From assembly GCF_964199755.1 (NCBI RefSeq), contig NC_133906.1, positions 9,114,001 through 9,178,000 of the forward strand: 64,000 nucleotides of DNA, written 5' to 3'. The stretch comes from Larus michahellis. Taxonomy: Eukaryota; Chordata; Aves; Charadriiformes; Laridae. Numbering within the stretch: position 1 is the stretch's first letter; each line of letters opens with the position of its first letter. Positions 32,934 to 62,155 of this stretch are shown here, piece by piece. Made by a program: the position numbers and the translations under genes. Under the pieces are notes generated by a model. The model had not been told where the DNA came from. It made no database searches and was given only the letters and a program-made list of their open reading frames with translations.

Positions 32934-33208
32934 ATGGCTTTGTCTGTGGACTCTGCTCTGTACCGTTGGCAGCGACTAGGAGCTGAAAGTCCCTCCCATG
33001 CTCTGTCAGAATCGACACCACTGCAGTTTCCTCTCGGAGACAAACCAAAACTCAACTTAAACAAATGGAGGATTGTGTTTCCCAGCAATGGGAGACAGTG
33101 GAACAACTGGAAACAAGCTTCTATGTTTTATTCTGCAAACAGGATACAGACCACAAAATACACGTGGTTCACTTTTTTGCCCCAATTTCTTTTTGAGCAG
33201 TTTCACAG
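32934..33208 (+). CDS. ATP10B: ATP10B canonical coding exon 1 (N-terminal cytosolic region)
   Basis: The exon encodes residues 1-91 plus two bases of codon 92. The protein starts MALSVDSALYRWQ, nearly the same as the mammalian ATP10B start, and an in-frame TGA lies directly before the ATG. It then runs through a variable cytosolic tail to the conserved P4 segment RIQTTKYTWFTFLPQFLFEQ and FHR just before M1. The donor after CACAG is GTAAAA, a weak but normal type, in phase 2. Oddly, the usual basic-Asn pair in FLP(R/K)N is QF here, a change at a position normally kept across P4-ATPases. Length and phase fit the family. This exon would be skipped in the isoform proposed to begin at 36113. Confidence 0.93.
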
Positions 33209-34279: not shown

Positions 34280-34474
34280 GCTGGGTAATCTTTATTTCTT
34301 CTTTCTGGTGGTTCTGAACTGGTTCCCACAAGTGGAAGTCTTCCACAGAGAGATTACCATGCTGCCTCTGATTGTGGTTCTCCTTGCCAGTATGATTAAG
34401 GATGCTATTGAAGACTACAGAAAATACCAATTTGATAAGACGATAAACTTGTCTAAAACCAGGGTATATGACAA
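34280..34474 (+). CDS. ATP10B: ATP10B canonical coding exon 2 (M1-M2 hairpin)
   Basis: The exon has 195 nt, phase 2 to phase 2, covering residues 92-157. It encodes M1 (NLYFFFLVVLNWFPQVEVF), a short exoplasmic loop (HREITMLP) and M2 running into IKDAIEDYRKYQFDKTIN on the cytosolic side. The acceptor is CCTTTGCAG and the donor is AA|GTAAGT. The EITMLPL block is shared with mammalian ATP10B and ATP10D. In P4-ATPases M1-M2 lines the lipid entry path, and the N-W pair at 105-106 falls near the position of the entry-gate residues studied in yeast Drs2/Dnf1 (alignment by eye). Residues 93-94 are LG where mammals have WA. It would be mutually exclusive with the exon at 36113-36615, which encodes the same structural elements. 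Confidence 0.93.
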
Positions 34475-36112
34475 GTAAGTAAACTAAACCAATTATTTTT
34501 CCTTGCATTTGGAGTGGTGGAAACTGCTCATCTGATTTTACAGTAATTCCCTCACTGAACCTTTGGAGTACATTAAGTTTGGAAACCTGTTATAAGAGAG
34601 TTTTATTCTGCCTTTAAAAATGCCTCATTTGTCTTGCTTAAGTGATCCTAATATCACTGAAGTTTTGTTTCATGCCACAGCAGTGTGTGCTGATATACAA
34701 GTTTTCATTCCAAGTTTCTAAACTAGTTTGCCAACACACACAACATCCTCTCCAGGTAGTAGAAGGATCTGGAGGAAAAATGAAACGTATCCAAGTCTGG
34801 AAATGATTTCTGAGGCTGTTTAACAAATTGGAGCAATGTCTTTTGGACACCTCATGCTGAAACTATTAATACAAAAATTAATAATCAACTACATTCAAGG
34901 CGAAGCATAACCAGAAGCGGAAAAAAAAATTTATACGACTTCCAGTAGACACAAGTGATCAATACAGCACGGTTTCGCTTTGGAGATGGTACAGCACCCG
35001 CAGTAAGCTGCAATGTTTGCTCACTACTGACTCAGAAGGAAGAAATATTTTAAAGTGCAATTCTTATTGCAACATTTCGATTTCATCAGAGTTTCTGGTC
35101 CAAGTACTAACTTGACTTGAGACTACTTAGCTTGTCACTACATAATGCAATAGACAGGAGTTTTCATTTAAAAGAAGTTTAAATGTTTGGATTTCCTCCT
35201 TTTCTCACCTCTCCTTAAGCCTAAGCCATAGAAAAAAAAATTACTGTATTTTGTACACATCTCATTAGCTCTCTTGGAAATTAGCCCTCATCTGTGCCAT
35301 ATACTTACGTGTCAGAAGCACAAGGACCAATGAGGAAGAAGAAATGAGAAGCTGGAAGGGGTTACTGGGTGAGAGAGGGACGCTTTGGCTTTCCAGCAGC
35401 GGGAGGTCTATCAGAGGAGAAGGATCAGGCTGAGGGGCAATCTAGGTAAAACTGCCCTTCAACTGCCTATGTCTATGTATCATTCTTCACAACTACCAAG
35501 TCGTAGGTTTGCTTGGTTTGGGGGGGGATGGGAGTTGGTTGTTTGTTTAATAGTCCATCTTATGGTCATGAAAACAAATAGTAGATAGAGGACATAAAAG
35601 AGAGAAATACTGTCTGTACTGAGGCTTGTAGCAGATTTCTGTTGACTTCTGGGACGCAGAGCTCTGCCCATTACCTTTGAACTTCCTGGCAACTCCCAGG
35701 CTTATAAAGTGATTCCGAAACTCATGGAGTGAACCGTGAGGGGTGTGGGTATGTTCTTGGCTTTGTCACTGCTCTGTGCTAAAACAGACACTTCATGCGA
35801 ACAGACAGTCAATGCCAGGGAAATGCTCTGAACGGGGCCTCCAGGCATATGCTAACAGGAATAACAAAACATTCAGGATGCTTTTGCCGTAAGTGAGGTG
35901 CAGCCTTCCCAGCAGGCTCTAGGACCCGGTGCAGCTGAGTCAGGATGATACCTGTCCCTCGGCAGGTGGAGGCTGGAGTCAAAGGAGAAGTCTGCCCTGG
36001 GCTTCCGACATCTTGACTCTTCTCTCTACCACTTGGGAGTTTATCCAGATTATTGAACTCTTCTAACTTTGTCGGTTCTCAACTTGAGGCTACGTTTTGA
36101 GAGAAAAACAAG
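34475..36112 (+). other. ATP10B: ATP10B intron 2, part before the alternative exon
   Basis: This 1.6 kb separates canonical exon 2 from the alternative first exon and would hold that exon's promoter. TTATAAAG lies at 35702-35709, an AP-1 site TGAGTCA at 35936-35942 and an overlapping E-box CAGCTG at 35932-35937. No CpG island is present. Confidence 0.55.
35702..35942 (+). promoter_or_regulatory. Candidate promoter of the alternative ATP10B first exon
   Basis: A TATA-like TTATAAAG (35702-35709) lies about 400 bp before the ATG at 36113, with a consensus AP-1 site TGAGTCA (35936-35942) between them. If used, transcription would begin near 35735 and leave a 5' UTR of about 380 nt. The elements are visible; their function is inferred from the position of an intact start exon downstream. 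Pyrimidine-rich acceptor-like tracts before 36030 and 36090 leave open a spliced 5' UTR instead. Confidence 0.3.
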
Positions 36113-36615
36113 ATGTCAAGGAAAATTGTTCCAGGCTGCTTCTCTAGAATGATATGGAAACAACATTTTTTCAAGGAATCCTGCTGCCGATGTGGTGCTC
36201 CAGACACTGAAATCCAAAATGAAGAGCTGGAAAAGAGAGGAAAAGTAAAGAAAAGAAAGAAGAAAAATGAAAATAAACGAGTGATCATCTCTAATTTGCC
36301 CTTTGGAAGTAAGAAGTGGAAGGAAAATCCAAACAGATACTATGACTCCAATAAAATTAAGACAACAAAATATACCATCTTGACTTTCCTCCCTAAAAAT
36401 ATCTATGAGCAGTTTCACCGCTTTGCCAATATTTATTTTGTGGTCATTGTAATGCTGAATTTTGTGCCAGTGGTGAATGCTTTCCAACCAGAAGTTTCTG
36501 TGATCCCAATTTGTGTTATAATGGCCATTACAGCCATTAAAGATGCTTGGGAGGACTTTCGGCGGTATAAACTAGACAAAGAAATCAATCATATGGGATG
36601 CTACATTTACAGCAG
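36113..36615 (+). CDS. Alternative ATP10B first coding exon, ATP10A-like N-terminal module
   Basis: The exon is intact: 503 nt from ATG, 167 codons plus two bases, ending AGCAG|GTAAGT in phase 2. That is the phase of canonical exon 2, so it splices in frame to exon 3 at 46784. The codon formed is Arg, giving Y-S-R-E-E, a join typical of ATP10A and ATP10D. An in-frame TGA at 36098-36100 fixes the start. The protein has a Cys cluster (CCRC, 24-27), a Lys/Arg-rich tract (41-56), [17 protein letters not shown] (80-96), EQFHRFAN (99-106), M1 (about 104-123, [12 protein letters not shown] at its end) and M2 (about 128-146) leading to [15 protein letters not shown]. By eye it is clearly closer to ATP10A (LNFVP.VNAFQP, AITA..D.WED, INH.GC) than to canonical ATP10B exons 1-2. 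It looks like an alternative first exon with its own promoter. A relic duplication is less likely, because the frame, motifs and donor are all preserved. Confidence 0.8.
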
Positions 36616-39019
36616 GTAAGTTTTATTACAAAAAAAGTTGGCTTGAGATCTTTTATCAACGGTGAGGCTTTTTGTTTAAAAAAAAAAAAAATAACTCCTG
36701 GAAATTCATGGTGATTAAGTAAAATGTAAAATTCATAGTGACTGCATAACACCTGGCATTTGTTTTGATACAGGGAAAGAAATTTCTTTTTTTGTTTTAA
36801 ACCTCATTTTCAAATTAGGAAGGCAAGTTTGAGTTTCATGCTATTGAGGTGGCCATTGGCCTCTTAAACGTGGGGTGCACTGAAAACAGGTGCTTAAATA
36901 GCTACTGAACACCTGGATTTCTAAGGAGTTTTCAAGAGGTCATAATTCTGTAAATATAAGGTAGCACAAAACAAGATCTGTCATGGGACCTATTTGCATT
37001 CTTAGCTGCCAAGAAACATCTTAAAAACGTACTCCTTTGAACTACATTTAATTTTATACTGTACGCTGTAGACTAGCTTTCAGTTGCATTTCTTTTACTA
37101 GCCTCTATGTAAAATAAAACCATAAAAATGCAGTTTAAAAATGGGAGATAGTAATATATGCCTCTGTTCAGTCATTTCTAAATGAATTAACTACATGTGT
37201 CTGTGCTCACTTCTTCAAAATATTTCTTGATCTCTTGATTTTAGAACTTTCAGAAGTTTGAAAATTATGTTTTATTGTACCAAAACTGTTCTCAGCAAGG
37301 TAGAAAATGACTTCTCCCTGTTAAAATATTGCATCTGGGAGTCAGAAGACCGAAACTTTCCTTCTCTGTGAATGTTGCTTGTCATCCCTCAAATTAATCA
37401 ACAGTGCTGTATATCATGTACTCTTTCATAAGCAAGATCTTGCAGAACTCTGGCTTTTATCACATGGTGCTGTCATTTCTGTTTGTTTCTCTTGCATGTG
37501 TTTGTCAGATTTTTATTTTTATAAGCTGCTGGTCAAACAACAAAACAATGGATTTGCTTGTTTGGGGGCTAAACTTATCCCCACATATAGATAATGACTT
37601 GTCAGAAACAAAACCGTGCTGCTCTCCTTGCCAACTTGTCTGAAAAAGCAGAGATTTTACAAGTGTCTAAATACCGTTCATTTAAGATTTCTTCTCTTTT
37701 TTACCATGAAGACTGTCAATAATTGTAGCTCTTTGGGTAGGGTGGCCAAATTGCCTCTTCTGCCCACCTTTGAGATTGCAATCTGATTGAATTTTTTAAT
37801 CTTTTCAATGTTGTATTAATCCATGAGGCAATGGATTATTTGTTAACACTTGTTAAAACCCATATGAAAGAGAGCAGGTGGTGCAGTAGGTACTAATGAA
37901 TGGATCTGCATAGGAATCTTATTTATTTCCTCTTTGCATAAAGCAACCATGTTAATTTATTTCTGAAACCCTTTTACCATGGGAACACGGGAAGTTGGAA
38001 ATACAGTAAAACTTTTTTTGTATAAGAGAAAAATGTCCATAATGGAATTATAACACACGTACAGATCCAGATTCAAGTTATAGCCATGAGTACTTTCTTA
38101 TGCAGAAACTTGACATGGGCCTGTCTTAAAATTGGTTGTCCCATCCCATAAAAAATACTTTGATCTATGAATAAATCTTGTCTAGAATCTTGTCTTTCAC
38201 CAAAGTTTTATGTCCCAAAACGATGATGTAAGGGAAAGGAAAATGAGGAGGGCTTCAGACTATAGTATTCATCCTGTCTGGAAAAATCACGGGTAATTAC
38301 AATTGCCATCAGATCAGCAGCTACAGCTTATTATGTCATGAATATTTTAATCAGGCTTCTATAGTGCTTTGGGAAGCTGATATTTCTTGTTCTTCTTGCT
38401 TGCTGCAAAGTCATGGAAGAGCACGTCTTCTAATTTTCTTCCTAATGAATCATCTGCTGTAGATAATTTTTTAACATAGGTGAAAGTCTTTTTTAAGACA
38501 CTGCAACTTTTGTTAATCATGTGGCATCAAAAAATACTTTTTAATAGAGCAACTGATCTTCCATCCTAAAAGGTAAGATTACTTAGGTCTTAAGAGTTAA
38601 TCTTGGAGAGTATATTGCCTTTATTTCAGATTTCAATAACAAGAATTCTGGTTACTGTTCCAAAAGCAATACGAAGGCAGCACAATCTCCAAATGCTGAA
38701 TGTTCTCCGAAACCTCCTTGAAGACTGGGGGAAATGCAGTAACTTGCCTTCTTTCAACACAGAGCAAAGGAAATTGAATTTAAGTAGGCTACCCTGTAAA
38801 CACATTACTTCTAATTTTCTTTTCACAGAGATCAGCTGGAATGGGAAATCCAGTCTGTTACTCAAATAAAGGAAAAGACACTTCAAGTAGTGTATTTAAA
38901 GAATGTTTAATTAAAAAAATAGGAAGCAATTAATAGGCATTAAATTGTCTTGGGGAGATGCAATAACTTAGACTGTGGAGATTTTAATTTCTGAGCCAAA
39001 ACTTTTGGAATTGTAAGTT

Positions 39020-46783: not shown

Positions 46784-46988
46784 GGAAGAACATGCTTATG
46801 TTGAGAAATGCTGGAAAGACGTCCGAGTGGGGGATTTTGTGCAGCTGCAGTGCAACGAGACCATCCCAGCCGATATCCTCCTGCTGTACTCCTCTGATCA
46901 GAACGGGGTCTGTCACTTGGAAACTGCCAACCTCGATGGAGAGACCAACCTTAAACAACGACAAGTGGTGATGGGGTTCTCCAGCCAG
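46784..46988 (+). CDS. ATP10B: ATP10B coding exon 3 (actuator domain, DGET)
   Basis: The exon has 205 nt, from phase 2 to phase 0, covering residues 157-225. It encodes [20 protein letters not shown], the [15 protein letters not shown] block and [22 protein letters not shown] (208-211) is the P-type ATPase actuator motif that drives dephosphorylation of the aspartyl-phosphate. The acceptor is AATGTCACAG and the donor CCAG|GTAAGC. Both canonical exon 2 and the alternative exon 36113-36615 can join here without changing frame: the first base completes Lys (AAG) or Arg (AGG) respectively. Confidence 0.95.
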
Positions 46989-49840
46989 GTAAGCCTGCTG
47001 AAAACGCAGCCCGTGCAGCGCGGGGTTGGCCTGTGCCCGTCAGCACACCAGCTCCAGCCATGAATTGCTTCTGACGGGCTGGTTGCCCTGTTAGAGCTAT
47101 GAAAGCATTTTGCTGTCCAAGCTTATGCCCTGTATGGAAAGCAGCAGTTTATCCCAAAATATTTTTGTTATTCTGGCCCAGGGATGGCTGTATATAAAGG
47201 AAGATTAGTTCAGACAGTAGTTGTTTGCAGAAAACTGCATCAACAGATGCTGAAGCAGCAACACGTGGCACCACCATTTGGGACAGCAGCAAATCTTTCG
47301 TGTGTATTCACCATCCCTGCACCACAGGGTGTCACGACACACAGCACATCCGACACCAAAGCAAAAAAAATACTGAGTGAATTATTTGTGCCTGGAAATT
47401 GGAAATCAGCTCGTGGTGCCTCTTCCAAAGCGGCCACGGGCTTCCTGATGGATTTGCTTCTCTGTTGGAGCTGACATACCATTGCTTGTTTGCTGGGCAG
47501 GTGGATGTATGGCAGTTCAACTGGGAAATGCTCTAAGGCACGCTAAATTGTAATGAAATAGCGGAATCTTTTACAGGAGTATGATAAGCGTTTCAATAGG
47601 AACTCAATGTAAATTAAAATGCGTGAAGTTAAACAAAACTTATATGATTAACATCATTTTGATTGTTAGCAGAGATTCAGTTTGGATGCCTAAAGTCACC
47701 TTTTTCCATAGGCTGTATCATTTCCTTTTTAAAAATACTTTACTAGTATATTCTCTTGACTTGTGTTTGACAAACCTGAAGAAAACAAGAAAATATGACT
47801 TAGGGAGAATTGTTCTTGTTACATTTTTCAATATCTTTTCAAACAGAGCAGGAAAGTTTTTCAAATAACACAGAACAAGTTTAAGGAGTTGTAGCATGTG
47901 AAGAGGAATATTTTGTTCCATTGGCATCACTCCAGCAGACAGTAAATCCAAAAAAATGGCAGGTAATTCTAGGAATTATGTCCATTTATTTAGCCATTAG
48001 TAGCAGTGCCATTAGGAAGATCTTTTGGGGTTATTGGTGGGTGGGACACAGCTGCCAGCGAGCAACCACATTTATTAAACAAAAGCACTCCATTTCCATG
48101 GCCAGTTGTGGTCAGGTGCTGTACTCCAGCGTTACTTGCTCTTTGTTCAAATGGAAATCACTTTGCAAGCACAATTAAGGGCTTTCTCGGGTTGTGGATG
48201 ACATAGTATAAAGCGTACTGTTGCCAGCGCTTTCCAATGATGACTGGGGAGAGGTTTTTCTCCTGAGAAACACTGAAAATTTTCAATATGTAGAGATTTA
48301 GCAAGAAACCCAATAAACTGGCTACTTCACTACAAAAAATAAACATTCTGCCTTTGTGTCACATAGCCATAGTTTACACGCTACGTTCTGTATTTTTGCT
48401 TTTAGAGGAAAAGAGAGTCCTCTACTATCATACAAAATGCAAATTTTTGCCTCAGTCATTTATAACATGAGGAAGTCTTCAAAATCCCCACATGCTGAAT
48501 TATGCTTCAGACTGCCTAGTCAAGGTTATTTTCTTTAGACTTTGAGTTGTTATTTAGATAAACTGTATGGCCGGAAGTGTTTAAACTTACAAAGTCTTGT
48601 TACCTTGGCAGATTGGAATGCAGTTCTGACCGTGGTGACAGCCAGTGGTCAGGAAGGTCAGAGCTTAAACAGTCGACTATATTCACCTGTTATTTTAACG
48701 TATTAGTGTAAACAGTCTATTGGCTAAAAAAAAACCCCAGTGTGCTAAATATCATACGTACAGGTTTTAGTGGGCTCACTTCTTCCTTGTTCTTTGAACT
48801 TTGTTTAGTCCTGTCATTTATGTGCTTTACAAAACTTATTCAGATCTAATTGTGTCTATAAAGTGTGACTCTAAGGAAGGAGGAAATACATATGAACCGG
48901 GGTTTGTTCTTTGGTTTAGGATATGCTTAGGAATATTGAATTCGCCTACCTGTAAAAGACTAAGGAAGACTATTTTTTTTTTCCCTTTTATGCCAGGGGA
49001 TAAAAGGGGATTTTCAAAAGTAAATTTTCAATTTCATTTTCAAAAGTAAAACTCTTGTCATCAAAAGGAAAAAATGTTGAGAGAAGAACCATTTTTCTTT
49101 ACCCCTTTCCTGCTAGAAACCTATTAGCTTTCTTCATTAGTAATGAATCCTCTAGGTGACTTTTGCATCTTCCTGATCTCCTGTTGTACAAATATTTCCA
49201 GCGCAACCAAATATGTACTGATTTTCCTGTTGAGTTTACTGTCTTGAACAAGATTCAGTGGAGGTGAATGATACCTCTCAAAAGAGATTCTATTAACATT
49301 CAGCCACATGGGTCAGAAGGTACACAAAATGCCGTTATAGTCATCAAGCTTTTATATTTGCTCCAATTTCGTTTTTTTTTTTAGATCAGATTCTCTACTT
49401 GCTTGTACTTAGATATTATATATATTAAAAAAAAAAAAGTTTCAAACTCCTGATAAATCCTGAAATTATTTTCATTTGAGTTTGCTTTTGGTTGAAGGCT
49501 AGTTTTGTTTCATAAATAATTTGAACTATTTGTTACATTCACTTTAAATGAAGACAGATGTTTTCACTAATTGGCATCTGTGATGTCTTGTCCAATACCC
49601 AGCATTTCTTCATTTAATTTAACCAGTTGTTAATCCAAGGGAGGAAAAATCTCAGATCTTTACTCAGCCCCTCCAGACCTTTGCTTCAGGCTGAATGAGC
49701 AAACTGCCTCTGCTCCTCCTCGTAGGGCAAGTGCTCCAGACCCCAACTATCCTATGGCCTATATTTAGCTGCTCTTATTGTTTATCTTTTCAAGTACTCA
49801 TTGGATTGGACGCTCATTCTCAGTGTGTTTCCTCTTGCAG
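46989..49840 (+). other. ATP10B: ATP10B intron 3
   Basis: A 2.9-kb intron with a T-tract near 49371-49382 and an A-tract near 49428-49438. No mobile element is recognised. It ends with the strong acceptor TTTCCTCTTGCAG. Confidence 0.85.
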
Positions 49841-49926
49841 AATACTTTGTTTGAACCCGAATTTTTCCAAAACACCATCATCTGTGAAATGCCTAACAAT
49901 GATCTCAATAAATTCAAAGGGTACAT
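49841..49926 (+). CDS. ATP10B: ATP10B coding exon 4 (actuator domain, continued)
   Basis: An 86-nt exon from phase 0 to phase 2, residues 226-254. It encodes [20 protein letters not shown] and then DLNKFKGYM, matching the E-x-P-N-N-x-L-x-K-F-K-G block found at this place in class V flippases. The donor AT|GTAAGT is consensus. The short size and both phases match the junctions of exons 3 and 5. Confidence 0.93.
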
Positions 49927-52649
49927 GTAAGTATTTGTTATCCATAAATGCATTTTGTATCTGAACTTTAATATTTCTCTTGGATGGAAGGAATGTATTT
50001 TGCAGAAATTGATGGATCTCACTGTTACCTATTCCTGGATTCAGAAGTCAATATAAGATGTGGACTGGAATATGTGCTTTGAGGCAAGGCAGGACCAAGG
50101 CTTGACACTGAATTTGCGGTTGTTTCATATGAACTGTTTGCACAAGGTTTCAGCTCTTTTCAGAATTCAGACATAAGCTCTTTTACATTTGACCTGAGGG
50201 TTAGGCTAGGCTAGATTTTAAATCTAAATCCTTCCTAATGTTTAAAGATATTCAGCTGCATGGCTTTAGTTTCTTCATACTTACGGCCACAGGGAAAAGG
50301 TATCCAGGACAAACAAATGTGATTTTCTTCTTACAGATAGAAAAAGCAAGCAAGCAAGCAAGAAAAATCCTACTGAACCAATGTTTTAGACTAGTATAAA
50401 AAAGTGCTTTTTTTTTTTGAGTGTAAACCTATGTACGTGTGGAAAAAGCCACGTCCTCTGTTCCTTATATTCTTTCTTCATTAAATAATTCTGGCACAGG
50501 CATAACAGGGAAATCTATGCTAGCAAATTCAGCAGATTTAAGCCCATTCCCTGGCTATAAGGCAAATTTGTATGGCATGGTTCATGTCCTAAAATTCTCT
50601 TGTGCCCCAGTCCAGGGTAGCTGTTTCCCAAAGCCCTCTTCAGAGCAGTCGTTGGTCCATGCTGGTTCCCACACCACACCAGAGAACTGTCTGAAATACC
50701 TGCTGCCCCAGACCCAATGTATGCTCCACATTATACAAATAATTTAACTGTATGAATGTGCCAGCATCCGCATCCATGCCCCAGATTTGTTAAGTTTACT
50801 AGTAGCTAAACTAGGATTTAATGTCTCTGCAAGAACGCAGTGAGAGTGTTGCACCTGGAGTAGCTGCAAATGGCCAGATCCTCTGACATAAGCAGGGGGT
50901 TCTCGCCCATTAGCACTGACCATGCTTAATCGGGTCTTGAGGATTTATGCCCTGTAAGAATGATGCCTCTAATAGCAACGCCATTTCCCCTCTACTGTGA
51001 TATCTTAAAAGGCAAAAAGAGGTCAAGTTTGTATCGATTGCTGACTGTGGTTGCTGGCTTTGAGGACCATTGGGTGTAATCTAAATTGAAGCAATCCTTC
51101 CAATTAGCCTGCTGTAACATGGCACAAGAGCACTGAGATTATAGAAATCTAGGTGATATGTCACAAGAAAACACACACAAATACACACCTTTAGGAGCCA
51201 GGATTCTATTGAAAGTCTGTAACAGAAATCTCTTTTGGAAATGCCTATTATCTCACCTGCTTGGTGGAATATGGAATTGGTTGCCTTTCTCTCACTGCTT
51301 CAGGGGTAGATGAAATAATGGGCAGTGAAAATTATTTATTAACATTTAGTGGAGTTTCTGTCTTTGGTTTGCTGTTATTCGAGCTATTTTGTAAACGCAA
51401 ATTACTTGGAACGGGTTACATTTTTCTCCAAGAACCCTTAATAAATTATTGAGGCTCTGTTGCCTTGCTATAAAACAGTAGCAGTATTCTCTCTGCTAAA
51501 AATGGTAAGAGCAAACTTAGTGACATCCATCTGACATGCCTGAACACAGCAAATTCTGCTCAAGGGGATGCAAGAAGGTTTCTATTAAATGAGTACACCA
51601 AGACTGAATACAGATTCCCAGAAAAACAGGTTTCTGGCATTATTTTTTACAATTCTGCCAGCTGTAGGTTGTTGGTGCCTAAACCTTTTCACTTGTCTAT
51701 TTGGTGTCATGTAATCATGTGCAGCTGCACACAGACATAGGACGGTACTTAGCCCTGAGATAGCACCTAACTTTGCCCTCCGTTTACGTGATGCTGCAGT
51801 TTACTGGTAAATGCAATGCCAAATATAAAATACAAAGTAGCAGAAGATACATATTTTAGAAGAAATTCTTTTTGTGTGCTGATATTTATGCAACAAAACC
51901 GGATGGAGTGACTGAAGTAAAAAATCTCAGCTTTGGCATAGATCTCAGGAGGAGCCTACCAGAGTATATAACAAAAACTGGGAGCAAAAGCAGTGTTATG
52001 CTTCCATTTTCAGAGACAAGTAACAAATTGTCTGCTTGATGGAGCACTGACCTTATAATTTTCATTAAGTTTTCATCTGCCTGTTCTGCTAGCAGAAGGA
52101 TCTGGTGTGTGACAGGACATCTTCAGCCAGGATGAAAAGTTTTCCATCCAGCGTGAGAGTGAGGAAGAGAGCCTCAGCCCTAGAGACTCTTCAAGCAAAC
52201 TGAGCTTCACAAAGATGAGAAGCCCTTTGGGGGCTGACAGAGGCACAGAAGCTCTTGCAGGGTGCAGATGTGTTCATCTGAACCTCTACCAGCAGGCAAA
52301 CCCTCCTCAGCTTTCTAAAAGGGTTTCATCTGATTGAAGTCACATAATGTATCTTGGCTTCATTTATGAGATACCGAATCTGCCAGATAAGGCACCAAGT
52401 GAAAGCCAAACTTGCTTCATATTGCCGTCATGATACAAACACCATTTAAGTGGTCTTTAAAAGAAATACTTAGACTTCTCTGACGCTTTTTACTGGAGTC
52501 TTTATTGAAGCTGAGTGAAATAAAAGCAAAACAGGGCCTTCACAGTTCCTTGGTTTCAACTTGAAAGAGACATGGCCACAAAAATTTTGTTTAATACTAT
52601 ATAGTAGAACAGAAAAAGGCACTACTTCATTTTATTTTATTTCTTCTAG
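49927..52649 (+). other. ATP10B: ATP10B intron 4
   Basis: A 2.7-kb intron with an (AAGC)n-like short tandem repeat at about 50345-50365 and a T-tract near 50409-50419. It ends with the acceptor TTTATTTCTTCTAG. No mobile element is recognised. Confidence 0.85.
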
Positions 52650-52756
52650 GGAGCAGCCAAATCATGAACGGATTGGTTTTAACATTGAAAGCCTCTTGCT
52701 TCGTGGATGTACGATCAGAAATACTGAGGCTGCAGTAGGAATTGTTATATATGCAG
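52650..52756 (+). CDS. ATP10B: ATP10B coding exon 5 (actuator domain to M3 linker)
   Basis: A 107-nt exon from phase 2 to phase 1, residues 254-290. It encodes [10 protein letters not shown] followed by [20 protein letters not shown] and IYAG. The LLLRGC-x-(I/L)-RNT segment and the V-x-Y-A-G-H-E-T-K block that continues into exon 6 are diagnostic of P4-ATPases. The donor is GCAG|GTAAGA. Confidence 0.95.
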
Positions 52757-55700
52757 GTAAGATGTATTTTCCATTTAGCTAAACATAGAATTTCCCTGTA
52801 ATTAACCAGAAGTAAATAAGTGTAGTCTAATATTGCACCACAATTTGACATTTTCTTTTAAGAACTGGTTGTGCATGGGAAAATTACATAACTTTTTGAA
52901 GTAAAGGTATTACGCATCCATCTCCAAAGCCCAGAGTCCTGCACTGGGTCTCTGGCAAATGACGGTACCCTTCTGTATGTCAAATATCTTGCTATCGTTG
53001 TCATACCTTGCAAAAATATCCAAACAAGTAAAAATTGTTAAGGTGAGTTTAACTCTCAGATCTGCAGCTCTGATTATAATACTAATTCCATCTGGCATAA
53101 AATCTACATGGCTGCCCTAAGGGAGGTCTCACTGGCTCCTCAGGGCAGAAACTGATGGAGCTGAAGATCTGCCCAGAAAAAAAAAATCATCCCAAAGCCA
53201 AGCTGTGCCCGTGCCAGCACACAGGAGGCAGTGAGAACAGCAGCTGGAGGTGACAGAAGAGGCAGCAGCAGCACAGGTTTGTGCTGACATAGACATAGCG
53301 CATCCGTGCAACCATGAGCTTCATGCAGTAGAGACATGAACCAAGCAAGACAGTGTCAGTGCCCAGATCAAATGCAGCGCTGCCAGGTTCAGTGGTGGGT
53401 CAGCTCATCTTTTTTTCAGCATCTTTTACTTTTGGAGTGCTGCCACTGCTTTTATTCAGTGAGCATGATTTAACATTGGTTTTGCCAGCTGTGCCCTCTT
53501 TTGCTCCAGAAACAGAGTATCAGCTACCCTCTTTATTTGTAGATTAAATAAAAGTAAATTTAAATACAACAATTAATCCCATTGTTGGTTATTTTTATCT
53601 TTCCGGTAGACTCATGTCACCTGTTTTATGTCTAATCAGCAGCAGGGAATTCAAGGCTGAGCCACCTAAGAGAAAACAGAAGTCATCATCTTTGTAAGAG
53701 TTATTTAGTTTAGATTAATCTCCACCATCCAGATTATTTTACCTGATAATTGGCCATTTTATTTCACTGATGTGAAAGTGGACTTTAAATGACTATACAG
53801 GTCTCATATGTTTCCAAAGTAACCTTCGCTTTGTGGGTCTTTCATTGCCCATCTCTCTGAACACCACATGTAAAAATGGTGCCTACCAGACAGAGGAGGA
53901 GAGAGAGAGCCAAACCCATCAGTTATTTTTTTGGAAGTAAATACTATATAAAAACCTCTGTAGGAATCGTTCCCTATAGAATTGGAATAACTTCTCTTCC
54001 CTTCTCCTGTTAAGGTGCCTATTTTTCTTCTCTAGTCTATTCCCAGTATGTTCCTTTGACCACCAGCACAGATCCTAACATGGATCTCTGTTAACGTTGC
54101 TTAAGCTGCTAGTAGGAAAGGTTGGAGTTTTAAAGTAATTTTCAAGATGTGGTGTCTTTGATCTGAGTAAGTCTTCAATTCAATTTCCAACTGACATCTT
54201 ATTGTTAATGTCAGAATAAAAGTTTATTCATTTTCTTCTAAAATTAGACTCACTTGTGACAGTACCAGCTTTATTTCTAGGGTTCTTTGACATTGATTAT
54301 GCTCTAGCTTTTAATCATGGTCTGTGACCTTTTCTGAACAGTCAAGATCAGTTACATTATAAGATGGCACATTCTCCCTTTTTAATACTCTACTTCTCAA
54401 CCCTACTCTCTAATGGAAGTCTTTGTGAAGAGTAGAGCCGTCACTTAATGGGATTGTTCAGCCTGTGCGGTTCTCATCTGACCCAAATATGGTTATACTT
54501 TTCATGGCTACCCAAATGGTTCTACACAAAGCAATAGCGCTAATGCACAACAACCTCATTACAGAGCAACAGCCAGTGTAGTTTTCTCATTGTGATAGGG
54601 GCAGCAGCAAGAATTACACACTTTTCAAATAATAAAGGATCAGAATGAAGTTTTAGATAAGCCCATCAGCCTGCACAAATAGAGAGACGAGGTACTAGTG
54701 GGGTGGTAGGTGCAGCTGTGTTGCACAGCATATGAAACTGTGAGGGTTAGGGGAGAACAAAGTAGCTTATTCCTCTTATTTCTGATATTCTGTTTCTTGC
54801 AAGGTGATTTCTGTATTACAGATGTCTCCTTTTCCTGTTGGTCTGAACTGGAAGGGAATGATTGAGCTGATATTTGGAAAGAAATCTCTTCCCTTTTTCT
54901 TCCTGAAATAAATCCATTGACATTTCCTTGAGGCTTTTCTGGGAAGGATTGAATGGTTTTGTCTTTTTTGGTTTCAACACAAAACATTCCGTTAAGCCTG
55001 ACAACATAAAAGAAAAGTGAGGAACAAGATTCACACAGCTGCTGGGGGAAGAGAAGTGCAGGCAGCAGTACCCTCCTCTTCTGTGTAACTCGGTGGTTAC
55101 AGCATTTGCTCACCGATGGGAAGACTTGGGTTTTGTTCTCAGTTCTGCCTGAATGGGAGCGAACATACATCTCCTGCTTCGCAAGTTGTACCCTGAATAC
55201 CCGACTCTGTGGAATGAGTGGGTACGTACATAGGCATGAGTTGGAAAGCAAGGAGCGTTGGTGGTATAAGCTGGTCCCACTGACGTAGCTCCAGGTTGTG
55301 TAAATAATTACATGTTCATTGGAAAAGGAAGACAAGAGTCCCAGCTCTTGGGTGAATGTCCTGAACATAAGGCTGGAGAGTAATTTTCTCTCTTGCTCTC
55401 GGCCTCAATTAATAACCTTTGATGTAAACCTGGGAAAAATCCAGCAGGCATGATTGAATCGTACCTAACTTCCAAATCACTTCCCTGGAGAAAGTCAAAA
55501 GGTAGCTTGGAAAACCATCCCTCTCACACAAACCATGCACATACAAATGAAAATGAAATACAAGTCTGCAGGGTCTGTATTTTCAGTGAAAAGGACTGTA
55601 GAAGTAAATATAAAAGATACCATTTAATATAGCAACAGATGGTATCCAGGTATCCCAATTGTGGAGGCGCAGTTTAGATAACATTAATAGAATAGCAAAA

Positions 55701-56355
55701 GCAATTTCTGCTTCTTGGCTTCTTACAGCATCCCTATTTTCCCATTGCAAATATACCATCTCAATACTAATTCAGTAAGTTTTAAGGATCGTTTGCTTTT
55801 TTTTTTTATTTCTTGTCCTACTGTTTTGTTAGCACTTTACAACCACATAGTGAAAAACTAAATAACATTACTGTCTTTCGCAGCTGGGTCTGACATGTTG
55901 GATTTTATTTAAGTTAATACAAGAAGTGTGTCTAGTGGCTTTTAAAGAACTGCTGAGAACTATTCATATGTGGATTTCAGGAATCTGCATAGCACCTAAT
56001 CAAGTTGTTTGTAAAATACAAAAAAATAATATTATTGTTCTTTTTCCTTGTTGGCATAGGAATATTTATATAAACCTTGTGATCCTACTGAATCTGCTCC
56101 TTGGGAAAGTAAAATGTATATCACAGCTGAAATCTGTAATGTAATGGAGGTCTTTTATAAACCTCTAGATTTATTCTCTGACATATGCTGTTGTTCAGTC
56201 AAATGAGAAGGTGAGCATACTAAATGGAACTAGAGTCAAATTAACATGTTATGAGTGTCCTGCTCATTTTGTGAGAGAAATACTTAAAAAAAAAAAAAAC
56301 AAACCAAACTACAAAATATTACATAAACATGTTGATATTCATTTCTGTTTTGAAG
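52757..56355 (+). other. ATP10B: ATP10B intron 5
   Basis: The 3.6-kb intron holds an old tRNA-like repeat at about 55078-55235, an A-tract near 56286-56300 and a 242-codon open frame on the minus strand (54640-55368) of unknown meaning. It ends with the acceptor TTTCTGTTTTGAAG. Confidence 0.8.
55078..55235 (+). repeat. Ancient tRNA-like SINE-type repeat
   Basis: TAACTCGGTGGTTACAGCAT resembles a tRNA A-box region. It is followed by GGGAAGACTTGGGTTTTGTTC, a decayed B-box-like segment (compare GGTTCRANTCC), then AGTTCTGCCTGAATGGGAGC and a partly complementary downstream half. I recall a similar partly palindromic tRNA-like repeat from amniote genomes but cannot name the family with certainty. 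It is strongly diverged. Confidence 0.35.
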
Positions 56356-56487
56356 GTCATGAAACTAAGGCCATGCTAAATAACAGTGGTCCCCGTTACA
56401 AGCGCAGCAAGGTAGAGCGACGGATGAATATGGATATATTCTTATGTGTGGGACTCCTGTTCGTGATGTGTCTTGTTGGAGCTGTAG
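56356..56487 (+). CDS. ATP10B: ATP10B coding exon 6 (M3)
   Basis: A 132-nt exon from phase 1 to phase 1, residues 290-334. It encodes [20 protein letters not shown] and RRMNMD, followed by the hydrophobic M3 segment (about 316-333, [17 protein letters not shown]). The HETK-A-M-x-N-N block is a P4-ATPase hallmark. The acceptor TTTTGAAG is adequate. The donor GTAG|GTACGA is weaker than its neighbours. Confidence 0.95.
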
Positions 56488-58937
56488 GTACGAAGCACTT
56501 CTGTTTCATTATTTTTTTGTAAATAGTGGTTAAAATTGATCTTATAGACATGAACGAGATCAGATCCAGAGCTGAGTGCTCTCGGGGTTTTTATGCTCCT
56601 TGGGCTTTCCAATAGACAAGTTAAAATGGGAAATCTGAGCAATTCAGATGAAAGAAAATTCAGCCATGGCTGTAAATATTTCAGATAACACCCATCTCCG
56701 CTGTGGTAAAATATGTGTAAAGCAGGCAGGTGAAAGCCACTGGGTTTGATGCATTGTAGGAATTGATAGTTGCCAACTGAGACCTGCTGCCTGAGTGGAT
56801 GTTTGTTCCTTGTGTGTAACAACAAGAGTAAAATGATGTAGCTTTACCTTCACTTCAGTAACATCTTCTCCAATATGTTCAGGAGTGATGTGAGCCAGAG
56901 CCACCTGATTTACAGCCCATGAGCTGCACATGACTCCTTCAGACGGTTTATTCTCCACAGCTACCTTCCTTCTCAAAAGCCCCTTTACAGCAGGCAGTGA
57001 GATGGATTAATTGTTTAGGTGGGAACAGCCTGCATTTTTCTGGGATCCTTGCAAGGGAGCACACTTGAATATAGGAACTGGGGTTAGCTAACTCGAGTTT
57101 ACTAGCTTGCTATTCTCAAAAACATCATCTTCCCTGCATGTAAGCACCTGCTTGCCTTCCAGCTCTGGTTGCAATCTGTCCCAGGCAGGTCAGGATTAAT
57201 AGGATCTCATAATCCTGAGGAAAGGGCCAAATTTTAAGGCCACTGACTTTTGAATGGCTCCCTGCTTTAAAGAGATAACAGAGGCTCCCATGAGCGCTTT
57301 GTGTTCAAAGCCCCTTTGCTTTTTACTCGATTCCATCTCGGTGATAACTTGCTTAGCGCTACTGCTCTGAATTAGTTTTGTAGCGACAAAGTCAAATGAC
57401 GTGGCACTGTCAAGTTTTCCTGAACCTGCCCTGGAGGCGTGTGATGTGACACACCAGCCAGTCATCACTGTAACACCATTAGAAGTAAGGGCCATCCAAA
57501 AAAGATAAACAATTGAACTGACTTAATCGCTTTTTAAATTTTACTGCTTCATGTTGCAGTGGGCTTTTTTGGCACGGAAATGGGATTTCACTCTGACAAC
57601 TGAGCTCTGTGTGAGGGAGAGAGAGACTTTATTTTCATTGTTCCCTGGCTGCTGTCATGTAGATTTAGAGACTTGTCTTTGTCTGGTGTGTAGGGGCCCT
57701 TGAGTAATAAAGTCCTTTAATTTAAGGTTTAAAGCAGTCTCAGATGAAAAAATCAGCATTTAAAAACCAATTTATCTATTCAGGTTTAGAAAAAAATAAG
57801 AATATAAAATGTTCATAGCCTAAGTGAAACACGTAAAACAAGTCCATTAGCTTTCATCGATTCAAAATGTCCCATAGCTCTACCATCAGTTCTTGCTTTG
57901 CAGCCTTGTCTGAATGTAGAGTTCTGGGAAGAAATATCACTGGTGGATCGATTATCAGGATTTTTCTTGCACACAGTGAAAAACTGGGGTAAGAAGTGGC
58001 TTGTAGAGCATAGTTGTCCTTGCTCAGCTGCGACTGTGGTCTCCAGCAGCCAGAAGGTATTCAAGATATAACTTGAATTCCTTTGGCAGCATTTTATTAG
58101 GCAGGTGCGGCCAAACAACCGCTTGCTTACCTGGTGCTAATAGAAGTTTTATCAGAGCTGGATATGCAAAGTGGACTAATAAAGCAATGTCGTAATGAGG
58201 AAAACCGAGTTGTTTGTCCTAGCTGTGTGTGAAGTTTCTGATGCTGTAAATTTAGTCACATCCTTGAGCAAAGTTCATTTCAGTAAGGGCAGCATGAAAA
58301 GTGGTAAAGTCATTGTGATGGTAAGTCCTGAAATGCAGGCTTTGTCGTAGTCATGCAATGACACCTACTGATATTTAAGACAGGGGAAGAAGCAGTTTTG
58401 GGGTATGACTTAATCAAAGGGAAAGTGAAAACGAGCTGCCCAAACTGAACTATAGGGGGATTGTCAACTCTAATGAAGACAGATTGAAATCAAGAATGGT
58501 CAGGAAGGATAGGAAAGATTTCAGTTTGTCCATATAAAGGTTATAAGGTTTCTTTCTGTTAGGAAGAGGAATGGGAGTCTTCATCACTGAGGATTTTTAA
58601 AGATAGGTGGTAGAGATGGAGTCGTCCAACAGCAAGACATAGAATGAGGAAAGATCTGTGCAGAGCTAGAGCCCTGGGGGACACCTGCTGAAGGAGAGGT
58701 GAATAAAAATACCCATGACCGCTCATTTCTTACTAGCATATCAATTATATGCATGTGCTACAGAGCTCTGCATATACTTTGCATTCTCCAACAGATTTAC
58801 AGCATTGCTTGGGGACTGTTGCTTTGGAAATGTTCTTTCTTTTTAATTATCATAGCAGTCCATATCTGCAAATTTCAGAAGCTTTGTCAATCACCTTATT
58901 GCTCGGTGTATTTCAATATTGTATATCATTCCTACAG
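56488..58937 (+). other. ATP10B: ATP10B intron 6
   Basis: A 2.4-kb intron. An old CR1-like fragment may lie at about 58560-58630. It ends at the acceptor ATCATTCCTACAG. Confidence 0.8.
58560..58630 (+). repeat. Possible ancient CR1-like fragment
   Basis: GGGAGTCTTCATCACTGAGG followed by ATTTTTAAAGATAGG resembles the CR1 3' segment that reads roughly GTCTCCATCACTGGAG, then TTTTTAAG. No terminal ATTCTGTG repeat is visible, so the assignment is weak. Confidence 0.35.
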
Positions 58938-59065
58938 GGCATGGCATTTGGACTGGAAACTTCTCAGAGCATCCGCCTTATGATGTCCCAGATGAGAATG
59001 GCAGTTTTCTGTCTCCAGTTCTCGCCGGTTTCTACATGTTTTTGACAATGATAATCCTGTTGCAG
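58938..59065 (+). CDS. ATP10B: ATP10B coding exon 7 (exoplasmic loop and start of M4)
   Basis: A 128-nt exon from phase 1 to phase 0, residues 334-376. It encodes the M3-M4 exoplasmic loop [20 protein letters not shown] and [10 protein letters not shown], then [12 protein letters not shown], the first half of M4. The loop of class V P4-ATPases contacts the CDC50 subunit in related complexes. N-F-S (341-343) is a potential N-glycosylation sequon if exposed. The donor is GCAG|GTAAAA. Confidence 0.95.
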
Positions 59066-59839
59066 GTAAAAGACAAAAACCTCCCTGTTACCTCCAAGGA
59101 AGAAGCTATTGAAAACTAAGTATAATCACTAAGGAACAATTAATATCAACTAATAGCTGTGCAGTGCCTCCTTAATCCTATTTGAAAATACTGCTAGGAG
59201 TGTTTCAGATCATCCAAGTGTGAAATAATGTGTCTTCTCTTTTTTTTTTTCTTTCTAACTGCAGATTTTTCTTTCTTGCTGTTGAAACCCCACAAGGGTA
59301 TAGATAGGAAGGACGTGTATTATATCTTTAAATAACTCCACAATCTCTAGCGTGTGCAATAAAGAGGATGTTTACATCCAAATGTCAGCTTTTTTTTTTC
59401 CCCGCCTATGGACAGACTTCCAAAATAAGAATGCCACTTAATATCTCAGGAAAACAGTGAAACAAAAATTGTCGGTTTTGCCAGTGGGGAATAATAACTA
59501 GGTTTGGTTCAGCTGGTTTAGGAAAGGAGCTAAATTAGAAGTAGGATGCTTGTATATCTGAGTCTGATTAAGCCTAATTGGGAGAGAACATTTTATGGGA
59601 TGGGGGAAAAAATTACATTTACTTTTCAGATTTCTTGATGTAACTACTGAGATTTAAGTGGACAGAATTTATTTAATATGAATGAACTGTGAAGATAGCT
59701 TTCAGAGCTGCGCACAGATTCCTTGGGGGATTATTCTTCATTACTGAAACAGAATATTTGTGCAGCTTAAGAATTCATTATTATTTCAGGGCAGGAAAGC
59801 TAGTGGGTGGGAAGTGCTGCGTGCGAAGTAATTGCATGT

Positions 59840-60404
59840 TGTCCTGGTTTCAGTTGGGATAGAGTTAATTTTATTTGTAGTATCTGCTGTGTTTTGGATT
59901 TAGTAGGAGAATAATGTTGATAACACATATTGGTTTAGTTGTTGCTAAGTAATGTTTACAGTAAATCAAGGACTTTTTCAGCTTCCCATAAAAGCTGAGA
60001 GGGAGCATAGACAGGACAAGCTGGCCAAAGGAATTTTCCATACCATAGGCATCATGCTTAGTATAGAAACGGGGGTTGGCTGGGGGACAGGGATCCACGA
60101 TCACTGCTCGGGATGGGCTGGGCAGCTGATCTGTGGGTGGTGAGAGCAATTTGTGCTGCATCACTTTATTTTGTGTATTCTTTTACCATTATTATCTTTT
60201 TTTTTTTCCTCTTTCATTACTGACCTACAAAACTGTCTTTATCTCAACCCACGAGTTCTTTGGTTGTTTGGTTTTTTGGGTTTTTTTCCTTTTTACCACC
60301 TCCTTTTTCCCCCCCTTCTCACTACCCTACTGGGGGGTCGGGGAGGGAGGGAGGGAGTGAACATCTGCATGGTCCTAGTCACCCGTTGGGGTTAAACCAT
60401 GACA
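59840..60404 (+). mobile_element. Solo LTR of an avian ERVL-type endogenous retrovirus
   Basis: The 565-bp element begins TGTCCTGGTTTCAGTTGGGA and ends GGGGTTAAACCATGACA, so it has TG...CA ends. Its interior matches a family very common in bird genomes (GATAGAGTTAATTTT, GTGTTTTGGATTTAGTA, CTTATCTCAACCC-like in U5). It is flanked by CATGT (59835-59839) and CTTGT (60405-60409), a 5-bp target duplication with one mismatch, as expected for ERVL. No internal gag/pol/env region exists, so recombination between LTRs has removed it. It lies in the sense orientation of ATP10B intron 7. The subfamily cannot be fixed without a repeat library. Confidence 0.9.
60332..60356 (+). other. G-quadruplex-prone G-run inside the LTR
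   Basis: GGGGGG-TC-GGGG-A-GGG-A-GGG-A-GGG gives five or more G-runs with one- or two-base loops, a strong quadruplex pattern on the + (sense) strand. It is preceded by a C/T-rich tract at 60298-60330. Confidence 0.7.
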
Positions 60405-60776
60405 CTTGTGAAACTTCTCTACATTAAGAATGAGTCTGTGCTAGTGCATCCTTTCAGAGTTTCAGGAGGATAAGAGCAAGCATGCTTCTCAGCCCAGAAA
60501 ATGTGCTTTGTAAGGGCGTCCTCTGAAAGACCCATCTTTGCATTTGGTATTCTAGGAATTTTGTCTTAAATTTGTCACTTATTGTTCCTCTTTATCCGTA
60601 GCTGTTATATGCATGATTTTTTTCCACCCCCTGAACTATTACTATTCAACCCTACAATATGTCTCTGGGAGGAACTGTTTCTCTGAAAATTGTTAGTATA
60701 CTTGTCCCAGGACATTGCTGACAGAAAGCAATAAGACTTGTCTCACCCCTCACTGAGCATTTAAACTCTTTTTCAG

Positions 60777-61029
60777 GTTTTAATCCCCATTTCTCTTTAT
60801 GTGTCCATTGAGTTAGTCAAGTTGGGCCAAGTCTTCTTAGTTCACAATGACATTGACCTGTATGATGAAGAAGCAGATTTGCCCATACAGTGCCGTGCCC
60901 TAAATATTACTGAAGATCTTGGACAAATCCAGTATATCTTCTCAGACAAAACTGGGACACTAACAGAAAACAAAATGGTATTCCGACGTTGTACTGTTGA
61001 TGGAATTGAGTTTTCACATCAGGAAAATG
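60777..61029 (+). CDS. ATP10B: ATP10B coding exon 8 (M4 PISL and DKTGT phosphorylation motif)
   Basis: A 253-nt exon from phase 0 to phase 1, residues 377-461. It opens with [20 protein letters not shown]: the PISL motif (380-383) is the P4-ATPase signature in M4 that replaces the ion-binding PEGL of other P-type pumps. It goes on through [20 protein letters not shown] and [20 protein letters not shown]. Asp433 of DKTGT is the residue phosphorylated during the catalytic cycle. The exon is complete and unbroken, so this pump is catalytically plausible. The acceptor is TTTTTCAG and the donor AATG|GTGAGA. Confidence 0.97.
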
Positions 61030-61919
61030 GTGAGAGACACTTTCTTATGTTTGCTTTTCTCTCTGAGTAACTAAATTTTATTAATTTAAATATTAACATT
61101 TAAACCTACTGAGCCCTCTGACTGAACGTAGAGCTTTGTGGATTTGTCTCCATTTTGTGAGGGACTGCTGTTATGGAGATTCACGGAAGTGAAGGTGTTT
61201 TAAATGATTCCGAAGTGAGATGGGAAAGGTTTTCCAGTTCCCTCTGCAGACATCTCGGGTTTTGCCCTGCATTCGATACCCACTCGAGAGTGCAAAGAGA
61301 ACATTTTCTCTTCCATTTCTAAATGAATGCCAGCCAACCTTTTATAAGCTTACAAACTGAGATTAGTTGGTAATTAAACTCAGTGGGTCCAAAAGTAATT
61401 AACAGAGTCTTCTGTGTGATATGAAAGGTACAGCTACACATTTTCTTGAGCCGACCCTAGCATTCAGTGCTCTGAATATGGGGGTTTGACTCAGGCCCGT
61501 TCTTGGTTGCTGCTTTCTCTCTCTACGTAGCAAGATGGATTTTATTAAGCTGGCAAGCAGCTGCCAAAAAGAAGTTTGTGCTCTCTGACTGAAAACATTA
61601 ACAAATCTGTGAATTACAATATTTCACTCTCCTGTTCAAATCAACTGCAAAATGCAGCTAAAGAGACCAAGCATTAGCAGAAGTCTATAAAAGTGACTGA
61701 TTGCTTTGAAAACACATTTTTGTTTTCTTGAAAAAATAAACATTGGAGAGTGGGAGTTGCCAGAAACTGTAGTGGATAGTGAAGTTCTTCTGGTGCTGGC
61801 TTTTGAGATGTTTTGGCTTTGGGTTAGTCTGTTTCAGTTTTTTTAACCAACCAAGGAATTCCTCCTGAGCAATGCAAAGAGCAGAAGACAACATGAGGTT
61901 TCATTTTTTGTTTTTACAG
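61030..61919 (+). other. ATP10B: ATP10B intron 8
   Basis: An 890-bp intron ending at the acceptor TTTTTTGTTTTTACAG. No repeat is recognised. Confidence 0.85.
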
Positions 61920-62155
61920 CCAGACGCCTGGAAACCCACAAAGAGTTGGATTTAGATGACGAGGACTTTGCAAAGCTTCAACACTTCACTCTTCCTCCCA
62001 TGAATATTGAGAGACCAGCCGCTTATAAGCAGAGGACCATGAGACCTTTAAGGAGGTGCCAGAGTGCTAGAGCTCATTTTCAGGGGCATACAAGGAACAG
62101 GTCACTCGGTCGTTGTGACAGCAACCAGTCTCAAGTGGCATTCAGCAGTACCATT
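61920..62155 (+). CDS. ATP10B: ATP10B coding exon 9 (start of the nucleotide-binding region, Ser/Arg-rich insert)
   Basis: A 236-nt exon from phase 1 to phase 0, residues 461-539. It encodes ARRLETHKELDLDDEDFAKL, a variable stretch, then RPLRRCQSARAHFQGHTRNR and SLGRCDSNQSQVAFSSTI. The last part matches the mammalian ATP10B segment with PLRR-x-QSAR, a QGH motif and VAFSS. In mammals the next residues are E-K-D-V-T-P, encoded by an exon not present before base 64,000. The donor is ATT|GTGAGT. Basic-directed phosphosites are plausible at Ser509 (RRCQS) and Ser522 (RNRS). Confidence 0.9.

Follow-up and report, generated by a model that had tools for sequence, protein, structure and literature searches.

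An alternative N-terminal coding exon in ATP10B

ATP10B of Larus michahellis contains, besides the two coding exons of its canonical start, a single exon resembling the start of ATP10A, which is very probably a functional alternative N-terminal coding exon and one that probably predates the separation of ATP10B and ATP10D. It was found in the window, by which we mean the whole 64,000-nucleotide stretch of DNA analysed here (NC_133906.1, contig C15, positions 9114001-9178000), which holds the first part of ATP10B (Table 1). In the model that we propose, an ATP10B transcript would begin either with the canonical exon pair (B-type, common to ATP10D) or with the single A-type exon (common to ATP10A), and either start would join exon 4 in phase 2.

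The sequence-only reading of this DNA had described an intact ATG-initiated frame of 503 nt with an in-frame stop upstream, a consensus donor, P4-ATPase motifs and the phase of the canonical exon, and all of these features were confirmed. The frame is open from 36101 to 36619 and is homologous to ATP10B starts. The window holds 65 stop-to-stop frames of at least 90 aa, so the length of the A-type frame alone proves nothing; a chance open frame was ruled out by homology, as A-type residues 70-129 matched the P4-ATPase N-terminal domain of Pfam (PF16209) with E = 2e-23 and 82.3 bits (cut-off 29). The donors of the two canonical exons and of the A-type exon all leave phase 2. In translation, splicing of the A-type exon to 46784 kept the frame and gave 168 residues, including the shared codon, in exchange for the 157 residues that the canonical start encodes; both lengths were as claimed. 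The exon had also been placed within an ATP10B intron. It is indeed intronic, 3' of both canonical coding exons and 5' of 46784, with the canonical start now refined to a pair of coding exons. The description of an ATP10A-like alternative N-terminus that brings an M1-M2 hairpin, a Cys cluster and a Lys-rich tail of its own was likewise borne out. The A-type and canonical cores of the window are 46% identical, and in this genome the canonical hairpin is split by an intron at the FHR codon (33208) in both ATP10B and ATP10D, whereas it is unsplit in ATP10A and in the A-type exon.

The exons downstream showed 72-99% identity to annotated stork ATP10B by tblastn, and lower identity to gar ATP10A and sturgeon ATP10D, both from fish. 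The exon at 60753-61037 encodes PISLYVSIE and SDKTGTLT with the phosphorylation site DKTGT, both characteristic of a P4-ATPase. A DNA search of the 1.4-Gb genome revealed no second copy of the A-type exon, the one match at E <= 0.001 being the exon itself.

Two further observations were made in the window. An acceptor-like site (score 7.8) lies within the A-type exon at 36148, and the A-type part of a fused Limosa model (P0002) begins there (MIWK). A minus-strand open frame with reverse-transcriptase-like sequence lies at 1238-2020, which we take to be typical of the bird CR1 retroelement.

Table 1. Positions of the two ATP10B starts, their motifs and the shared exons in the window
Feature	Position	Strand	Basis or remark
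Canonical (B-type) first coding exon	32934..33208	+	likely acceptor just before 32915
ESTPLQ in canonical tail, at the dileucine site of other canonical tails	33009..33026	+	second Leu is Gln
Canonical (B-type) second coding exon, M1-M2 hairpin	34280..34474	+	phase 2 donor
Trp106 codon of canonical start, gate position equivalent to Phe117	34320..34322	+	
Candidate untranslated leader after candidate acceptor (35966)	35966..36112	+	score 9.8; sites that good occur at 0.9 per kb in the window
In-frame TGA, 15 bases 5' of the A-type ATG	36098..36100	+	sequence; open frame
Alternative (A-type) N-terminal coding exon	36113..36615	+	open frame, PF16209, orthologues in annotated ATP10B proteins
Cys cluster CCRC, A-type residues 24-27	36182..36193	+	translation
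Polybasic stretch, A-type residues 41-56 (16 residues)	36233..36280	+	9 K+R in 12 residues
Phe117 codon, entry-gate position aligned with Dnf1 Ala231	36461..36463	+	Phe in 232/232 A-type cores
A-type exon donor GTAAGT (CAG|GTAAGT, consensus), phase 2	36616..36621	+	
Shared exon 4, joined by either start	46784..46988	+	
Further shared ATP10B exons: 49811-49927, 52636-52758, 56349-56489, 58886-59068, 60753-61037, 61919-62155 (ends not exact)	49811..62155	+	tblastn, annotated stork ATP10B

The A-type start in other species

A search of 5.8 billion proteins with the 168 A-type residues, full-length candidates included, gave 723 matches at E <= 1e-5. Among the best 120 of these, the A-type start was present in ATP10B of birds (ostrich, and from ducks to songbirds), turtles, squamates, platypus, marsupials and many placentals, as well as in frogs, salamanders, caecilians and one bony fish, Scleropages, whose partial model carries both starts in a row. 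Over the part covered, identity to the A-type exon in the same 120 was 84-96% in birds, 72-75% in turtles, 58-72% in mammals and 65-70% in amphibians. Several of these species also appeared in the corresponding search with the canonical start (best 120 of 589 matches). Of the groups named for homologues by the sequence-only reading, birds, turtles and squamates have the A-type start, whereas crocodile gave canonical-start matches only (best 120 of 589 versus best 120 of 723).

In public databases, A-type ATP10B is often labelled "isoform X2" and also "isoform X1"; most of these isoforms are computed models, and their numbers say nothing about abundance. Clusters at 90% identity can moreover hide one isoform behind another. 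Thirteen protein records, for example P0002, P0038, P0046, P0045, P0048, P0051 and P0052, string canonical and A-type pieces together, some with M1-M2 twice, and these gene models are probably prediction errors.

The A-type start is transcribed and spliced in other species. Seventeen of the best 120 A-type matches came solely from a source labelled lgn, which we took as assembled sequencing reads; none of the best 120 canonical matches did, possibly an effect of the choice of cluster representative. The lgn contigs measure 4,577-7,099 bases with uninterrupted frames of 1,404-1,476 aa, and the A-type core reads into exon 4 without a break in 17/17 rows. Within the 17, a set of ten close copies (34-38 differences over 1,423 positions, counted without alignment) may come from one species. 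One bird-like row, P0029 (1,476 aa, 47 members, contig of at most 6,647 bases), has a duck as its nearest row. Because the distance from the A-type exon to exon 4 spans 10 kb in the window, P0029 represents spliced RNA.

We then compared conservation in 10 species or near-species pairs that have both starts. The A-type core was more conserved than the canonical core in 45/45 comparisons, which share branches and are not independent; pigeon was left out, its canonical core not being matched by pattern. Of 89 codons compared between the A-type exon and ATP10A exon 1 of the same genome, 26 differ at the first position, 13 at the second and 62 at the third, which is the pattern of selection on the protein.

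Origin of the two starts

ATP10A, ATP10B and ATP10D arose from the vertebrate genome duplications. The relationships of their starts were analysed in a core tree of 89 aligned columns and 49 rows (4 outgroups), with 13 open branches; rows were chosen from the match lists, and P0090 was dropped as it had no core. Long branches led to canonical ATP10B of Scleropages and to one outgroup. A-type ATP10B (84/92), ATP10A (97/96), A-type ATP10D (74/75) and canonical ATP10B each formed one group. In this tree, of the kind that the sequence-only reading had suggested for M1-M2 regions, the A-type exon of the window fell with A-type ATP10B of other vertebrates (birds, 99/97). The canonical ATP10B and ATP10D starts came together (92/89), the four ATP10D ones without forming a group of their own. 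Forcing the A-type and canonical starts of ATP10B into one clade cost 49.9 log-likelihood units (p = 7.8e-6), and an independent duplication inside ATP10B was rejected by this constrained tree. The same constraint on the A-type and canonical starts of ATP10D cost 41.2 log-likelihood units (p = 9.3e-4). The two starts appear to have parted before ATP10B and ATP10D did.

The proteins minus their starts were placed in a quick body tree of 38 rows and 1139 columns, with rows again chosen from the match lists. In it, the A-type and canonical forms of ostrich, of wall lizard and of opossum came out as pairs, as did those of near relatives (two ducks, two turtles). Since the core tree parts the starts and the body tree pairs them, both starts share one body.

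An A-type start was also found in ATP10D of teleosts, as isoform X2 in several species (best 120 of 564 matches). In the body tree, ten teleost A-type ATP10D proteins grouped with sturgeon ATP10D, apart from ATP10A and ATP10B. In the sturgeon ATP10D model, P0164, the second hairpin exon and the one after it are repeated, through either an assembly artefact or a tandem exon duplication.

In the genome of this bird, ATP10A lies on contig C1, with exon 1 near 150195738 and the equivalent of exon 4 at 150241079. Only an A-type start was present there, and no canonical-type relic was detected at E <= 1e-3 in 200 kb, including the 45-kb first intron. At ATP10D, only the D-type pair was present, and no A-type relic was detected in 22 kb spanning the whole intron before the exon 4 equivalent. 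With the canonical start, a whole-genome search returned the modules of ATP10B, ATP10A and ATP10D together with eight to ten weaker matches; with either start, the further matches listed are weak (E 1e-9 or worse). ATP10A exon 1 (913-1911 of the ATP10A locus) lies in sequence that is GC-rich by eye and has a 332-aa open frame; the A-type exon of ATP10B is AT-rich.

Because teleost ATP10D has an A-type start too, the gene ancestral to class V probably carried both starts, as judged from vertebrate genes. The simplest history would be that ATP10A kept one start, land-vertebrate ATP10D the other and ATP10B both, where the loss in land-vertebrate ATP10D is based on the Larus michahellis genome. 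Of the origins offered by the sequence-only reading, an ancestral class V exon retained in birds or reptiles stands as to ancestry but falls as to restriction, since mammals, amphibians, one bony fish and teleost ATP10D also have such a start.

N-terminal tail and targeting

Acidic dileucine motifs play a role in lysosomal targeting. With [DE]xxxL[LIM], which we take to be the consensus, the motif was present in 107/107 canonical ATP10B tails versus 4/106 A-type tails, and those four all begin with canonical sequence and belong to fused models. A 12-residue stretch with at least 7 K+R occurred in 95/106 A-type ATP10B tails and 4/4 ATP10A tails, and in 2/107 canonical and 2/107 A-type ATP10D tails. 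These counts cover 325 of 345 proteins (9 with two cores, 5 lacking a full core and 6 whose tails fall below 35 residues were left out), and many of the counted rows are several models of one species and not independent.

The A-type start would drop the dileucine motif and bring an ATP10A-like polybasic tail, likely making the protein less lysosomal and more plasma-membrane in location. From these motifs, we consider it reasonably probable that the A-isoform leaves the lysosome for the plasma membrane. In the window itself, the motif is absent from the A-type tail and from the canonical tail, where ESTPLQ lacks the second Leu, and the targeting contrast is therefore weaker in Larus michahellis. 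The canonical lysosomal signal of this species may be damaged at this site, or the change may be a base error.

Entry gate and lipid choice

TM1 forms part of the lipid entry gate, and a change of Dnf1 G230 alters lipid choice, according to a review (PMC12424579, section 4.1). The gate position of the two starts aligns with Dnf1 A231, beside G230. Among 345 proteins (5 without a full core, 9 with two), the residue was Phe in 232/232 A-type cores and Trp in 114/117 B-type cores, with cores typed by the nearest reference and the gate column left out. The B-type exceptions are two cuckoo-family birds (Leu, Phe) and a New Zealand wren (Cys) (P0141, P0147, P0160). Many of these rows, too, are several models of one species and hence not independent. 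The nearest-reference assignment superseded a typing by identity to three references, in which 19 Phe cores had been classed as B-type and 22 could not be assigned.

With an ATP10A-like M1-M2 hairpin and Phe for Trp at the gate, the A-type start might shift preference towards phosphatidylcholine (PC), a step of which we are less sure than of the change in location. Canonical ATP10B is reported to move PC and glucosylceramide, so that Trp is compatible with PC transport. That the A-isoform prefers PC more than the canonical form does is possible but somewhat doubtful, the TM4 Gln and the ATP10D terminus swaps described below also counting against it.

Promoter or splicing

No CpG island was detected upstream of the A-type exon. 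The candidate acceptor at 35966 could make the A-type exon an alternative second exon as readily as an alternative promoter could account for it. Joined to this acceptor, the canonical start would run out of frame and then meet a stop; if the acceptor is used, this junction would keep the two starts exclusive.

Alternative explanations

In a bolder reading, which as a whole falls somewhat short of an even chance, ATP10B would encode two different flippases: exon choice would yield either a pump of the lysosome whose gate resembles that of ATP10D or a pump of the plasma membrane whose gate resembles that of ATP10A. The switch would already have been present in the ancestral class V gene and, after gene duplication, would have been sorted so that ATP10A has one start, land-vertebrate ATP10D the other and ATP10B both. 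It is quite unlikely that the exon instead derives from ATP10A exon 1 by a later copying event, with ATP10B and, in a separate event, ATP10D acquiring it once the three genes had diverged, although A-type ATP10B and ATP10A do lie on one side of a branch of the core tree (78/94) and both are single exons in this genome. Two captures would be required, and each A-type set is its own group, with moderate support on 89 columns; together with the ATP10D copies, these moderately supported groups also disfavour the exon-1 duplication from ATP10A that the sequence-only reading had considered. In fused models the canonical part precedes the A-type part (6 models of ATP10B, 3 of ATP10D), and 62/89 third positions differ from ATP10A exon 1 of this bird. 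A decaying relic, or a rarely used exon with no protein role in this bird, would fit the lack of a CpG island and of a standout acceptor upstream, but is very improbable given the intact frame and splice signal, the 84-96% identity to bird rows among the best 120 of 723, the slower change than in the canonical start (45/45) and the spliced contigs of other species. The ATP10A-like sequence might also suggest part of a separate ATP10A-like gene or pseudogene within the ATP10B intron. We give this next to no weight, as ATP10A lies elsewhere, tblastn matched no second set of downstream exons in the window, and other species join the A-type start to the ATP10B body in contradiction of it.

Harder to set aside, though still rather unlikely, is that the exon is real and the isoforms differ in expression site only, with lipid choice and location alike. 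Canonical ATP10B already moves both lipids; the TM4 Gln reported to be required for glucosylceramide is not part of the swapped module (PMC12424579, section 4.1); and swaps of the N- or C-termini reportedly leave ATP10D flippase activity unaltered (Okamoto 2020, as cited in PMC13212812). Against these observations stand the sharp contrasts of ancient origin in the sorting motif, the polybasic tail and the residue at the gate, and the published lysosome retargeting by the ATP10B N-terminus.

Relation to known systems

The first coding exon of ATP10A (class VA) resembles the A-type exon in being a single exon and in its basic tail, M1-M2 type, junction and gate Phe. It differs in belonging to its own gene on another contig, in its GC-rich start region (by eye) and in sequence, with 51% identity over residues 33-168. 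ATP10D (VD) likewise has two starts in teleosts, a D-type resembling canonical ATP10B and an A-type; it differs in that no A-type start turned up in 22 kb of the ATP10D locus in this genome and that A-type tails are less basic (2/107).

Canonical ATP10B (VB) has a two-exon start, a dileucine motif in other species, no polybasic tail and a gate Trp, unlike the A-isoform. The human records NM_025153 and O94823 presumably have the canonical start. In the Parkinson's disease study, 26 exons of NM_025153 were sequenced and O94823 was expressed (PMC7244618); the form used there is identical to the A-isoform from exon 4 on, and the study may have overlooked a putative human isoform that lacks the dileucine motif.

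For ATP10B of placentals, PMC5740500 mentions a cluster of mutually exclusive exons, said to be absent in marsupials, whose exons it does not name. Both this cluster and the A-type exon are alternative exons of ATP10B. The A-type start is, however, present in opossum and bilby, so the cluster may be another exon pair. The A-type isoform is already in public databases, and no paper describing the exon was found in the literature searched. Within that literature, a gene that combines two starts of ancient origin, each resembling the start of one sister gene and opposed in sorting and gate features, appears undescribed.

The gate features that separate glucosylceramide-only ATP10D from PC-preferring ATP10A are called unclear in the 2024 review (PMC12424579, section 4.1). 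ATP10B offers a natural swap, in which one body carries ATP10D-like and ATP10A-like hairpins that differ, almost without exception, at one position known from the gate. If the proposed history is true, it would be a case of alternative exons being sorted into separate genes.
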